From positions 62,001 to 126,000 of the forward strand of contig NZ_KK366040.1 of NCBI RefSeq assembly GCF_000686945.1: DNA of 64,000 bases. Direction: 5' to 3'. The stretch comes from Selenomonas sp. AE3005. Lineage in GTDB: Bacteria; Bacillota; Negativicutes; Selenomonadales; Selenomonadaceae. Made by a program: the position numbers and the translations under genes. The notes under the pieces were generated by a model. That model saw nothing but the letters and a program-made list of their open reading frames with translations, had not been told where the DNA came from and did no database searches. Shown piece by piece: positions 21,219 to 59,599 of the stretch (positions are counted from its first letter, which is position 1; each line of letters starts with the position of its first letter).

Positions 21219-21247
21219 GAGGCCCGTTGACAACGTCAACGGGCCTC
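21219..21247 (+). terminator. Convergent terminator between symporter and rnhA
   Basis: GAGGCCCGTTGAC (21219-21231) and GTCAACGGGCCTC (21235-21247) form a perfect 13-bp stem with a 3-base loop, followed by TTACTATTTATT. It stands between two converging genes and could serve both. Confidence 0.75.
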
Positions 21248-33200: not shown

Positions 33201-33235
33201 AAAAAGTCCGTTGACATTGTACGTCAACGGACTTT
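33201..33235 (-). terminator. Terminator of the sugar ABC transporter operon
   Basis: AAAGTCCGTTGAC (33203-33215) and GTCAACGGACTTT (33223-33235) form a perfect 13-bp stem with a 7-base loop; on the minus strand a TTTTT run follows. It lies 45 bases past the last permease gene. Confidence 0.85.
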
Positions 33236-46607: not shown

Positions 46608-47211
46608 AATTACAGTTTGCCGGTCAATGCGTGCTTATTTTTATTTGTTACAGCTCAGTCGGGTGGAGGTGGTAATACTTTTCGCTGTTGCACTAAATGA
46701 CCCACCAGCAAAAATATTGTTTTTCTAGCTACATGCGCCGGCAAGCAGTCGGCGCGATTGTTCAGCACAGTGTCCAGGGACTGTTGTTTGTGGGCCAGTC
46801 CTCACTGCGTTCGGACGGTCGTTCCACTGCGAAAAGCATCACCACCTCCGCCCTAAGCGTCGTCCGTTTAAAAGAATTATTTCGCAGTGACAGGGAACAA
46901 GAACATCGATGTTCTTGTAACGGGAGCAACGAGTTCGTGGCAATTGTAAAGGCTGTGGCTAGGGGCGAACGGGGGAGTGATTTTTATGCGGGGAGCGACT
47001 GCCTGAGCGCAGCGAAGGCCGGCACACTGTAGTACGCAGCTAAGCAACTACGCTGAAAGGAGCGCCGTTGGCCTGCCCGGCGCAGGTAAATGGACAGCAT
47101 TATTTAACGAGGTGTGTCGTTTAGCGGAGGCAGAAAAATTACTCCCCCGTGAACCCCATGCACGCATAAACGGGATATTTTTAAGAACGTATTTACCGCC
47201 AAACTGCAATT
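46608..47211 (+). repeat. ~600-bp structured non-coding repeat, copy 1
   Basis: The element is bounded by imperfect 25-base inverted ends (46608-46632 and 47187-47211, 21 of 25 matching). A second copy, clearly homologous over its whole length, lies near 52.4 kb. Internal long inverted repeats include 46661-46685 with 46829-46853 (25 bases, 3 mismatches); the perfect 22-base palindrome at 46897-46918 (ACAAGAACAT and its complement); 46962-46985 with 47134-47157 (24 bases); and two GCGCCG/CGGCGC hairpins. No open frame is conserved between the copies. It could be a large structured RNA or a non-autonomous mobile element. Confidence 0.75.
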
Positions 47212-47214
47212 TAC

Positions 47215-47249
47215 AAAAAAAATCCGCAGACTACTATAGTCTGCGGATT
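47215..47249 (-). terminator. Terminator of purA
   Basis: AATCCGCAGACTA (47221-47233) and TAGTCTGCGGATT (47237-47249) form a perfect 13-bp stem with a 3-base loop; on the minus strand eight T residues follow. It lies 22 bases past the purA stop and almost touches the structured repeat. Confidence 0.85.
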
Positions 47250-52305: not shown

Positions 52306-52348
52306 AAAACGATGTGAAAATGCTTTAGTATTTGTCACATCGTTTTTT
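52306..52348 (+). terminator. Terminator of padR
   Basis: AAAACGATGTGA (52306-52317) pairs with TCACATCGTTTT (52335-52346) and a T run follows. It lies just before the second structured repeat. Confidence 0.75.
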
Positions 52349-52355
52349 ATTGCCC

Positions 52356-52956
52356 ATTGCAGTTTGACGGTCAATGCCTGCTTTATCTTATTTGTTACAG
52401 CTCAGTCGGGTGGAGGTGGTAATACTTTTCGCTGTTGCACTGAATGACCCACCAGCAAAATATAGACATTTCCAGTTACATGCGCCGGCAAGCAGTCGGC
52501 GCGATTGTTCAGCACAGTGTCCAGAGACTGTTGTTTGTGGGCCAGTCCTCACTACGTTCGGACAGTCGTTCCACTGCGAAAAGCATCACCACCTCCGCCC
52601 TAAGAAACGTCCGTATAAAATGATTCTTTCGCAGTGACAGGGAACAAGTACATCGATGTTCTTGTAACGGGAGCAACGGTTTCGTGGCAATTGCCCAGAC
52701 CGTTACTGGGGGCGAACGGGGGAGTGATTTTTATGCGGGGAGCGACTGCCTGCGCGCAGCGAAGGCCGGCACACTGTAGGCCATAGCTAAGCAACTACGC
52801 TGAAAGGAGCGCCGTTGGCCTGCCCGGCGCAGGTTACTGGACAGTTCTATTTTCCGAGGGGTGTCGTTCAGCGGAGGCAGAAAAATTACTCCCCCGTGAA
52901 CCCCAGGCACGCATGAACAGGATACTTTTATGCCCGAACTAATCAACAGGCTGTAA
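52356..52956 (+). repeat. ~600-bp structured non-coding repeat, copy 2
   Basis: This is the same element as near 46.6 kb, same orientation and almost the same length. Most internal stems are kept: GGGTGGAGGTGG pairs with CCACCTCCGCCC, the ACATCGATGT core palindrome survives with one mismatch in the arm, and both GCGCCG/CGGCGC hairpins are present. The best diverged stretches lie in loops or weak flanks. The terminal inverted repeat is poorer here. It ends six bases before the stop of the next gene. Confidence 0.75.
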
Positions 52957-52961
52957 TTTAC

Positions 52962-57109: not shown

Positions 57110-57155
57110 ATGACTCATGGCAAAAGATGACATCATTGCTGTGAGTCATACTTTT
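57110..57155 (+). terminator. Hairpin past the acyl-CoA synthetase gene
   Basis: ATGACTCA (57110-57117) pairs with TGAGTCAT (57142-57149), with inner GGCAA/TTGC pairing, and ACTTTT follows. It may be the terminator of the synthetase gene, or the first stem of the pan leader if transcription starts at the TTTACC/TAAAAT promoter just before it. Confidence 0.5.
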
Positions 57156-57183
57156 ATGAACTGGATTTATCTTAAGGCATAAA

Positions 57184-57329
57184 GGAAACTGCCCGGATTG
57201 TCAGAAACCGGGACAGCTTTAGAGGATATGCTCTATTAAGGTTACTTTCCGTACAATCAGTAAATAACAAGGCTGTGAAAGCATCTTTGCCGTTCTCAGG
57301 GAGAGCGTGCGTGCTTTACAGCCTTTTTC
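57184..57329 (+). promoter_or_regulatory. Structured leader with terminator ahead of panS-panC-panD
   Basis: The 5' part can fold as a three-way junction: outer GGAAA/TTTCC (57184-57188 with 57246-57250) encloses CCCGG/CCGGG (57192-57196 with 57208-57212) and AGAG/CTCT (57221-57224 with 57231-57234). An intrinsic terminator follows, AAGGCTGTGAAAGCA (57269-57283) with TGCTTTACAGCCTT (57312-57325), then TTTCTTTT. This is the layout of a transcriptional riboswitch or attenuator. I do not recognise a known riboswitch class. Confidence 0.4.
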
Positions 57330-57369: not shown

Positions 57370-58326
57370 GTGCAAAAAATCATCAAAAAACTTGTCGACA
57401 ATCTCGCGCTGCTCGTAATCGCTATCGGCGTTCTGGGTGCCTGGCGCCCGGAAACGCTGACCTGGGTAGGGCCTTATGTGTCCTGGATGCTGGGCATTGT
57501 CATGTTCGGTATGGGCATGACGCTCAAAGTCGAGGACTTCCAGCGCGTACTCAGCCATCCCAAAGAAGTGGCCATCGGCGTAGGCGCCCAGTTCGTCATT
57601 ATGCCGCTCGTAGCACTGGCTCTGGTCAAGCTCTTTGCCCTGCCGCCGGAACTGGCTATCGGCGTTATCCTCGTAGGCACCTGCCCCGGCGGTACGGCGT
57701 CCAATGTTATCGCCTATCTGGCCCGCGGTGATGTGGCGCTCTCCGTCTCCATGACGATGACCACCACGCTGCTGGCTCCTATCGTAACGCCGGCCCTTAC
57801 CTATTTCCTCGCCGGCGCCTGGATTGATATCTCCTTCACGGCCATGATGATTTCCATTGCCCAGATGGTACTGGCACCGGTAATCCTCGGCCTGCTGGTT
57901 CACCACTTCATGGCTGACACGGCACAGAAAATCATGCCGGCCATGCCGCTGGTATCAGTAATCTGCATCGTACTGCTGGTCGGCTGCGTAGTAGCACTTT
58001 CCGCCAGCAAACTGGCAGCCGTCGGTCTGACCATGGCTGCCATCGTCATTCTGCACAACGCCTTTGGTCTGGCCTTAGGCTTTACCGCCGCCAAATTACT
58101 GCGCCTGGACAGCCGCAAAGCCCGTACTGTCGCCATTGAAGTCGGCATGCAGAACTCCGGTATGGCTGCCAGCCTGGCCGTTATGTACTTTAACCCGGCC
58201 GCAGCGCTGCCCGGTGCCATCTTCAGCGTCTGGCACAATGTTTCCGGCTCCCTCGTGGCCAACTTCTGCGTACGCCGGGACAATCGCGAGTCGCAGGAAG
58301 AACCTGCCCCTGCTTATAACCAGTAA
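57370..58326 (+). CDS. panS: BASS-family transporter, PanS-like
   Basis: This 318-residue membrane protein is of the bile acid:sodium symporter (BASS) family, with about ten hydrophobic segments, for example ALLVIAIGVLGAWRPETL and MLGIVMFGMGMTLKVEDF, GVILVGTCPGGTASNVIAYL (the family GTCPGG motif) and AIEVGMQNSGMAASLAVMYF. PanS of Salmonella is a BASS transporter for ketopantoate or pantoate, and standing directly before panC and panD argues for that role here. The start is GTG 57370, seven bases after AGGAGG. The gap to panC is only 12 bases. Confidence 0.78.
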   Translation: MQKIIKKLVDNLALLVIAIGVLGAWRPETLTWVGPYVSWMLGIVMFGMGMTLKVEDFQRVLSHPKEVAIGVGAQFVIMPLVALALVKLFALPPELAIGVILVGTCPGGTASNVIAYLARGDVALSVSMTMTTTLLAPIVTPALTYFLAGAWIDISFTAMMISIAQMVLAPVILGLLVHHFMADTAQKIMPAMPLVSVICIVLLVGCVVALSASKLAAVGLTMAAIVILHNAFGLALGFTAAKLLRLDSRKARTVAIEVGMQNSGMAASLAVMYFNPAAALPGAIFSVWHNVSGSLVANFCVRRDNRESQEEPAPAYNQ

Positions 58327-58338
58327 GGAGAATACACT

Positions 58339-59187
58339 ATGAAAATTTTAACAACTATCAAAGACATCAAAGCCTACGCGGCGGCCTGCAAAGCCCAGGG
58401 CAAAACCATCGGCCTCGTGCCCACCATGGGTGCCCTGCATGAAGGCCATCTGACGCTGATGCGTGCGGCCAAAGAAAAATGCGATATCGTCATCGCCTCG
58501 GTATTCGTCAATCCCACCCAGTTTGGCCCCAACGAGGATTATGACGCCTATCCCCGTCAGTTTGCCGCTGACTGTGAAAAATTAGAAAGTGTCAATATTG
58601 ATGCCGTGTTCCATCCGGAACCGGCTGAGATGTACCCGGAAGGCTACTGCACCTTTGTCAACGTAGATGGGGATATCACGCACAAACTCTGCGGTGCCCA
58701 GCGCCCCGGCCATTTCCGCGGCGTTGCTACGGTCGTAACAAAACTCATCAATCTGGCGCGCGCTGACGAGGCCTTCTTTGGCCAGAAAGACGCCCAGCAG
58801 GTAACGGTTATCCGCCGCTTTGTCGAAGACCTCAACATCAACGTACACATCAACATGGTGCCCATTGCCCGGGAAGAAAGCGGCCTCGCCCGCAGCTCAC
58901 GCAACAGCTACCTGTCAGCCGAAGAAAAAACTGCTGCTCTCGTCCTCTCCCGGAGCCTGCAGCAGGCTAAAGCCGCCTATACGCAAGGGGAAACAGATGT
59001 AGCGGCCCTGGAAAATATCGTCAAGGCTGAGCTGACCAAAGAACCAATGGCCAGCATTGACTATGTCAAGGCCTATGCCTATCCGTCCCTCAAACCGCTG
59101 ACCAAAGTCAGCGAAGACACGCTGCTGGCCATTGCCGTAAGAATCGGCAAGACGCGCCTGATTGATAACGTAATACTCACAGCCTGA
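58339..59187 (+). CDS. panC: Pantothenate synthetase
   Basis: PanC joins pantoate and beta-alanine with ATP to make pantothenate. The 282-residue protein has [20 protein letters not shown] near residue 25, [20 protein letters not shown], the [15 protein letters not shown] and [19 protein letters not shown] motifs, and the [22 protein letters not shown]-binding loop. Length is normal. It is followed by panD, its beta-alanine source, with a 28-base gap. No panB is in the window. Confidence 0.97.
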
Positions 59188-59215: not shown

Positions 59216-59599
59216 ATGCTCCTAAATATGCTCAAAGGAAAAATCCACTGCGCCACTGTTACGGAGGCCAATCTGGCCTACATGGGCAGCATCACTATCG
59301 ATGAAGAACTCATGGAAAAAGCCGGTATCCTGCCCAATGAACGGGTACAGGTCGTCGATAATAACAACGGCGCACGCCTGGAAACCTACACCATTCCCGG
59401 CCCCCGTGGTTCCGGCGTAATCTGCCTCAACGGGGCTGCCGCCCGCCTGGCCCAGCCCGGTGATATTGTCATCATTATGGCCTATGCCCTGTTTACCGAA
59501 GAAGAAGGCCGGGCCCATAAGCCCAAGGTTGTCATGGTGGATGAAAACAATAAAATCAAAGAAATCCGCACTGTAGAATATCACGGACAAACAGCATAA
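59216..59599 (+). CDS. panD: Aspartate 1-decarboxylase
   Basis: PanD makes beta-alanine from aspartate. The 127-residue proenzyme has the Gly24-Ser25 self-cleavage site in [14 protein letters not shown], which yields the pyruvoyl cofactor, and the closing [17 protein letters not shown]. Length is standard. It feeds PanC, encoded immediately upstream. With PanS-type import of pantoate or ketopantoate, the operon could make pantothenate without panB or panE. Confidence 0.97.

Follow-up and report, generated by a model that had tools for sequence, protein, structure and literature searches.

A palindromic, probably MITE-like element with twin structured units in the Selenomonas ruminantium group

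The stretch of DNA analysed here (the window, 64,000 nucleotides from Selenomonas sp. AE3005) contains two copies of an imperfect palindrome that we regard, with moderate confidence, as a MITE-like mobile element that belongs to the Selenomonas ruminantium group, encodes no protein, carries structured twin units and is moved in trans or copied by recombination. This reading rests on the dyad symmetry of the element, its conserved base pairing, the G.U strand bias in its long stems, ends shared with a second cargo family, sites that are empty in relatives, the neighbouring hairpins and the homogenisation of copies.

The two homologous copies of about 600 bases lie on the same strand (Table 1), where a first-pass annotation made from the letters alone had placed them; the ends of copy 2 are set here at 52355-52958. 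In the same orientation, copies 1 and 2 are 92% identical over an ungapped block of 300 nt and 93% identical over one of 110 nt. The annotation had described several inverted repeats within each copy, and these are present. The 25-base arms at 46661-46685/46829-46853 belong to a 33-nt stem (46661-46693/46821-46853), and the 24-base arms at 46962-46985/47134-47157 belong to a 28-nt stem (46962-46989/47130-47157). Both stems are 82% complementary in copy 1 and are found again in copy 2. The 22-base palindrome described as perfect is so in copy 1, and the 25-base inverted ends of that copy match at 21 of 25 positions when read directly. Since 390 of 612 positions agree when the consensus of the element is compared with its reverse complement (E 2e-39), these several repeats are one hairpin unit present twice and mirrored, and the whole element is a single palindrome of about 600 bp, an inverted dimer. 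The layout is as follows: a terminal inverted repeat of about 20 bp, a unit of about 200 nt, the 22-bp centre, the mirrored unit and the other terminal repeat. Both units face away from the perfect centre.

Table 1. Features of the two element copies, with positions counted in the window.
Feature	Position	Strand	Remarks
Element copy 1 (whole palindromic element, reference copy)	46608..47211	none	
Left terminal inverted repeat, copy 1	46608..46627	+	AATTACAGTTTGCCGGTCAA; family consensus AATTGCAGTTTG...
Structured unit A, copy 1	46657..46856	- (favoured)	182 bits; opposite strand 24 bits
Central perfect 22-bp palindrome (dyad centre), copy 1	46897..46918	none	ACAAGAACATCGATGTTCTTGT
Structured unit B, copy 1	46960..47160	+ (favoured)	188 bits; opposite strand 26 bits
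Right terminal inverted repeat, copy 1	47192..47211	-	TTTACCGCCAAACTGCAATT
Terminator-like hairpin adjoining copy 1	47221..47249		13-bp stem; directly 3' of the adenylosuccinate synthetase stop codon
Element copy 2	52355..52958	none	
Structured unit A, copy 2	52404..52603	-	180 bits
Central palindrome, copy 2	52644..52665		one mismatched pair
Structured unit B, copy 2	52707..52907	+	183 bits
Terminator-like hairpin 3' of a PadR-family gene	52310..52342	+	12 nt between its end and copy 2

The units of the window score 180-188 bits on the favoured strand and 24-28 bits on the opposite strand with a unit model that was built from the same family, so that these scores express membership and are not independent proof of structure. 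Folding of the two copy-1 units gives z = -4.3 and -6.6, and none of 200 shuffles is equally stable. A BLAST search of the Selenomonas sp. AE3005 genome (2.82 Mb, 25 contigs) returns 54 matches to the element, counting pieces and reverse-strand matches of the palindrome. Both the stability of the folds and this number of matches are far beyond chance. The longest ORF fully within copy 1 has 111 amino acids and no Pfam match, and copy 2 has no ORF of 100 amino acids or more. As the annotation had held, no ORF is common to the two copies, and the element is protein-less in the sense in which the word is used for MITEs.

The same window has an Rfam pan motif at 57124-57220 (+; 39.8 bits), upstream of an ORF at 57370-58326 that by eye we take to be a symporter of the sodium/bile-acid type. 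It is followed by a presumably panC-like ORF (58339-59187, again by eye) and, downstream of the motif, by an aspartate decarboxylase ORF (59216-59599, Pfam). The locus is possibly a pantothenate operon that includes a transporter.

In an alignment of 115 fetched copies of the element, the ends AATTGCAGTTTG...CAAACTGCAATT are conserved and the central palindrome is near-invariant. Each of the eight outermost positions, at either end, has the consensus letter in at least 90 of 114 copies. Matches below 230 bits, mainly reverse-strand readings of the same copies, had been dropped before this set was made, and the dropping of copies at least 96% identical left 106; both sets are fetched loci, not all copies of all genomes.

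A single fold fits both halves of the element. Its 34 pairs were assessed in 44 units, namely both units of 22 diverse representatives of the 106 distinct copies; standard pairs fill 98.0% of 1487 cells, and 19 of the 34 pairs have changed on both sides. Such cells count sequences rather than events, and in several pairs the differences are chiefly those between A and B units. When the pairing is slid by one to three columns, at most 7 double-sided pairs and 49% pairing of cells are reached. On four of the five pairing measures none of 500 shuffles does as well; on the fifth, further pair types, 13 of them do. A scan across every pair of columns is more sparing, as follows. One pair lies above the maximum of a tree-based null (12 simulations). 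This pair and the next three by score, those three being below the null, are base pairs of predicted helices, and linked columns that do not pair follow closely in score. Thus the covariation check proposed by the annotation gave paired changes well beyond the slid and shuffled controls but only one pair beyond the tree-based null. Selection on base pairing in each unit is strongly supported. The annotation's argument from kept stems therefore stands for two units of about 200 nt, though not for one RNA of about 600 nt.

The two halves do not favour the same strand. Read on the plus strand, stem P1A has 62 G.T and 260 A.C cells, and stem P1B has 98 G.T and 4 A.C cells. A G.U pair is conserved at corresponding positions of the two units, on opposite strands, in 35 of 44. 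Since the G.U pairs of the two halves are on opposite strands, the favoured strand of each half reads outward. Single-sequence folding favours the outward strand in 97 of 106 A units and in 93 of 106 B units, counts that come from related copies and are not independent. Unit A of copy 1 breaks the bias, with -85.0 kcal/mol on the favoured strand and -86.1 on the opposite one. Two controls weaken the test. In 98 of 106 copies the plus strand is also the more stable one at the centre, where there is no unit, and a set of 21 distant units (18 from other genera and 3 from the congeneric genomes G007 and G015) has no strand bias (9 of 21). Because of the centre control, we lowered our confidence in the full reading slightly.

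A clear outward promoter was not found in the centre: scored with E. coli weights against simple letter shuffles, the mean best score toward unit B is 4.6 versus 5.2 for shuffled sequence, and toward unit A 5.9 versus 5.4. The largest excess is inward from the left end (5.75 versus 4.40). The conserved wobble pairs and the branched fold favour RNA as the folded strand; the missing promoter and the centre control do not.

The element is abundant in its own genome. There are 65 strong unit matches (E below 1e-45) among the best 150 scored of 803 first-look candidates, and when grouped by hand these make 28 divergent pairs, one rearranged copy and seven loci with a single intact unit, at least 36 loci in all. 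The inverted doublet of hairpin units by which REPINs are recognised is therefore present. Six copies with an internal deletion keep both ends and exactly one intact unit each. A seventh partial copy is interrupted at about query position 412 by an ORF (L033:1234-2430) that we take, by eye, to encode an IS110-type transposase. A weak unit-like match of 21 bits, with similar scores on the two strands, occurs at L268:2592-2769 (-); it is possibly a decayed unit, and the ORFs on its flanks, judged by eye, are presumably hydrogenase-maturation genes.

The search of related genomes that the annotation had recommended found the family in the genus relatives as well. DNA matches occur in 15 of 41 genomes (its own and 40 relatives), and all 15 belong to the same genus. 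A pattern scan of named genomes has Selenomonas ruminantium strains and metagenome bins among the matches listed; the few unrelated organisms listed there are taken to have only the 22-letter pattern in common. The unit model finds matches in 18 of 22 genus genomes, from 1 to 108 per genome when opposite-strand matches are included and at most the best 113 candidates per genome are scored. The four without a match are G009, G018, G019 and G021. In a class-wide draw of 300 genomes, 22 match the model, from 7 of 97 genera, and 21 of these genomes belong to the same family. In these distant members, single and tandem units adjoin ordinary metabolic genes. Units of about 190 nt in another genus of the family (L255, L250, L252, L251 and L267) are tandem or in divergent pairs, apparently intergenic, and L255 has three in a row. 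Copies of related species at L097, L098 and L099 are longer by about 130-160 nt, because of an insertion or a partial duplication close to the central palindrome.

The phage collection has no match to the element. One pattern match in a GC-rich viral contig was judged to be chance, the unit model reaching only 10.7 bits there. The plasmid collection has one record with a match, the 4.7-kb plasmid pSR1 of Selenomonas ruminantium (NC_002139.1), whose record starts and ends within an element copy. There is no replication protein among its four listed genes, in a gene table that may be incomplete, and the radical-SAM genes next to its element copy are found beside a chromosomal copy (L051) as well. 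pSR1 may be a circularised or cloned piece of chromosome.

The same ends also enclose a second interior. A terminal-repeat search of seven genus genomes, which included G009, G018, G019 and G021, gives pairs spaced about 560-710 bp in G009, G018 and G019, besides some with shorter spacing. These interiors, too, are inverted dimers. When copy L291 is aligned with its reverse complement, 330 of the 509 aligned positions agree (E 4e-51); read outward, its two halves have folding energies of -130 and -118 kcal/mol. Among halves of this family, folding favours the outward strand in 10 of 10 and in 8 of 10. The copies of this second family (L285-L304, from G009, G018, G019 and G021) are mostly 560-710 bp long, each half being one long hairpin, and some have an extra insert of about 130 nt at the centre. 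In a BLAST survey that scored at most the best 25 candidates per genome, exactly these four genomes have close copies, each with a best E of 2.1e-86 or lower, and 16 of the other 18 have weaker relatives, at E 1.5e-24 or higher. The four genomes with close copies are the same four that have no unit of the first family. Homology between the two cargo families was not detected by the unit model, which reaches at best 13.8 bits with filters off, the top match there being a flanking hairpin at 17 bits.

Copies tend to adjoin terminator-like hairpins. A strong hairpin lies within 55 nt of an element end in 81 of 113 fetched copies, compared with 140 of 1459 random points of the window; for very strong hairpins the counts are 71 of 113 and 26 of 1459. 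Most random points fall in coding sequence, so part of the excess reflects only location at gene ends, and the search was for hairpins, not complete terminators. An initial tally over 115 copies gave 43 with a hairpin only on the left, 32 only on the right, 7 with one on both sides and 33 with none. Many of these hairpins have a stem of the same type, CCGTTGAC...GTCAACGG. The strict stem CGTTGAC...GTCAACG occurs at 13 places in the own genome, two of them in the window (21225-21241 and 33209-33229). By comparison of coordinates, 8 of the 13 are beside an element, and no credible unit was found near the other 5. We considered the hairpin as a fixed part of the element, with mixed results: the CCGTTGAC-type hairpin is missing at all three empty sites orthologous to L007, whereas the terminator is kept at the empty L068 site in the own genome. 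Element ends are usually flanked by TA. By simple ORF calling, which is rough, the genes around 28 own copies are convergent in 10 cases, tandem in 13 and divergent in 5.

The annotation had offered a non-autonomous mobile element as one of two readings. Orthologous sites without the element do exist in relatives, as follows. The own-genome copy L007 and its hairpin are missing from the orthologous site in contigs of three relatives; L115, a copy of G017, is missing from the orthologous site L138 on a G008 contig; and L068, which is a G010 copy, has an empty orthologous site in the own genome. Presence/absence polymorphism, as known from MITEs, is thus seen at three sites. The annotation had also looked to target-site duplications as a mark of movement. 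None of 2-10 bp was found in 114 copies, the largest excess of flank matches over shuffled pairing being 0.10 in a test that is blind to a fixed TA on both sides. By the annotation's own measure this counts against simple transposition, though empty sites exist. Mobility is supported by the terminal repeats and the sites empty in relatives. The mobile-element reading therefore draws support from the 36 or more loci, the inverted ends, the empty sites and the alternative interiors, but not from the target sites.

At sites shared by distant species, copies resemble each other no more than copies at different sites do. Between such species, in one example, orthologous copies have an identity of 0.761 and non-orthologous copies 0.755, compared with 0.88-0.90 for paralogues; the flanks at the compared orthologous sites are 81-97% alike. 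Mean identity among the copies of one genome ranges from 0.83 to 0.95. Copies at shared sites are thus homogenised within genomes, that is, they undergo concerted evolution. For the close species G010 and G011, the mean identity between genomes equals that within genomes, and the pattern is not visible. At shared sites, 86 comparisons find the same orientation and 39 a flipped one (the comparisons are not independent). The predominance of the same orientation argues that many copies are old residents, and flipped copies are expected if the palindrome inverts or re-inserts.

What moves the element was sought in the genomes themselves. An autonomous partner with the same ends was not found in the own genome, where 54 pattern matches are, by eye, element ends except for four, which were judged to be chance. 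Three helper families were tested, and none follows the distribution of the element. IS200-type Y1 transposase matches 13 of 22 genus genomes, a different distribution: there is no match in the copy-rich G010, G011, G017, G005, G001 and G002, and the own genome has only a Y1 fragment with a stop codon. IS630-type DDE_3 matches 0 of 22, and reverse transcriptase has no match in the copy-rich own genome, G017, G003, G008, G016 and G020.

These data bear on several other explanations. The other reading of the annotation, a single large ornate RNA of about 600 nt and of the ROOL/GOLLD type, is hardly credible. The element resembles such RNAs in length class and foldability, but it is an inverted dimer whose halves favour opposite strands, it is dispersed in many copies and its single units occur alone. 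Rfam gives no family at gathering score for the window copies and, up to E = 5, only a chance-level miRNA match, so the suggested Rfam check identified nothing; the covariance models of ROOL/GOLLD and of intron cores (group I or II) have no match in the window copies. A SINE-like retroelement moved in trans by the reverse transcriptase of a group IIC intron is very unlikely. Group IIC introns insert beside terminators, and both the neighbouring hairpins and the conserved base pairing would suit such an origin; the lack of a reverse transcriptase match in the copy-rich genomes named above largely refutes it as a present-day mechanism.

The folded strand might be single-stranded DNA and not RNA, a minority possibility in our judgement. 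The element would then be REPIN-like but giant, and during replication a single-strand-specific enzyme of the HUH type would recognise its twin hairpins, one on each strand. The inverted doublet of units fits the general REPIN plan (PMC3116915), a rotationally symmetric process would presumably also give each half an opposite strand bias, and there is no clear promoter signal. Against this stand the lack of Y1 in six copy-rich genomes, with a mere interrupted fragment in the own genome, and the units themselves, which are branched and about 200 nt long, compared with 20-40 bp for REPs (PMC3733652). Concerted evolution at shared sites would also be expected of a resident multicopy family of non-coding RNA genes with a host function, subject to gene conversion as rRNA genes are and moving only rarely and incidentally. 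The six deletion copies, each with exactly one intact unit, and the units beside metabolic genes in distant members fit this proposal. We consider it unlikely, given the spread from 0 to 108 matches per genome within one genus (under the scoring described above), the four genus genomes without any, the sites gained or lost and the lack of a clear promoter.

For the MITE-like reading, the following mechanism can be proposed. The ends would be recognised by machinery supplied in trans, which would place the element beside terminators, where it would do little harm. The folded units may be read in single-stranded form, the simplest case being a pair of RNAs transcribed outward, and the fold would be kept because it is needed for the copying or upkeep of the element. 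Gene conversion, or re-insertion at the same place, would overwrite copies at old sites, and the palindrome would allow flips. It is tempting to go further and to picture constant terminal repeats around two structured RNAs, a swappable pair in mirror image that is read outward, in the direction of the insertion site, and serves both copying and placement beside terminators, a proposal that we put forward as doubtful.

A description of the element was not found in the open-access literature, among the matches listed. The closest kinds of element are MITEs (PMC10969869) and REPINs (PMC3116915); target-site duplication fails for the former and the RAYT feature for the latter. QMITE2 of Coxiella burnetii is described as a multicopy, intergenic element that encodes no protein, has terminal inverted repeats and gives transcripts with predicted stable stem-loops (PMC10969869). 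The present element is like it in all of these respects, the transcripts apart. It differs in being about 600 bp long and an inverted dimer whose branched units are conserved and show compensatory changes, and in having two cargoes behind the same ends; no target-site duplication was found, nor, in its own genome, a partner with these ends. In REPINs, two inverted hairpin units form one extragenic replicative unit (PMC3116915). The present element is also an extragenic inverted doublet, but its units are many times longer, its terminal repeats are conserved, terminator-like hairpins are its neighbours, and several copy-rich genomes have no Y1 transposase match. The IStron SrISt1 of Selenomonas ruminantium subsp. 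lactilytica, a group I intron joined to IS607 (PMC4227781), likewise couples a structured RNA to a mobile element in the same species group. In contrast, the present element has no ORF and no Rfam group I intron match on either strand of copy 1, and it has inverted repeats and a palindromic architecture.

Bacterial MITEs are usually regarded as IS-derived (PMC10969869). For such an element, an interior under strong pairing selection, with two opposed units and two sequence families behind the same ends, is unusual. The element may also explain breaks in the draft genomes of this group, as a number of matches begin or stop at contig ends. It makes testable the part that a folded RNA or single strand would play in moving or maintaining a protein-less element, and the reason why its copies adjoin terminators.
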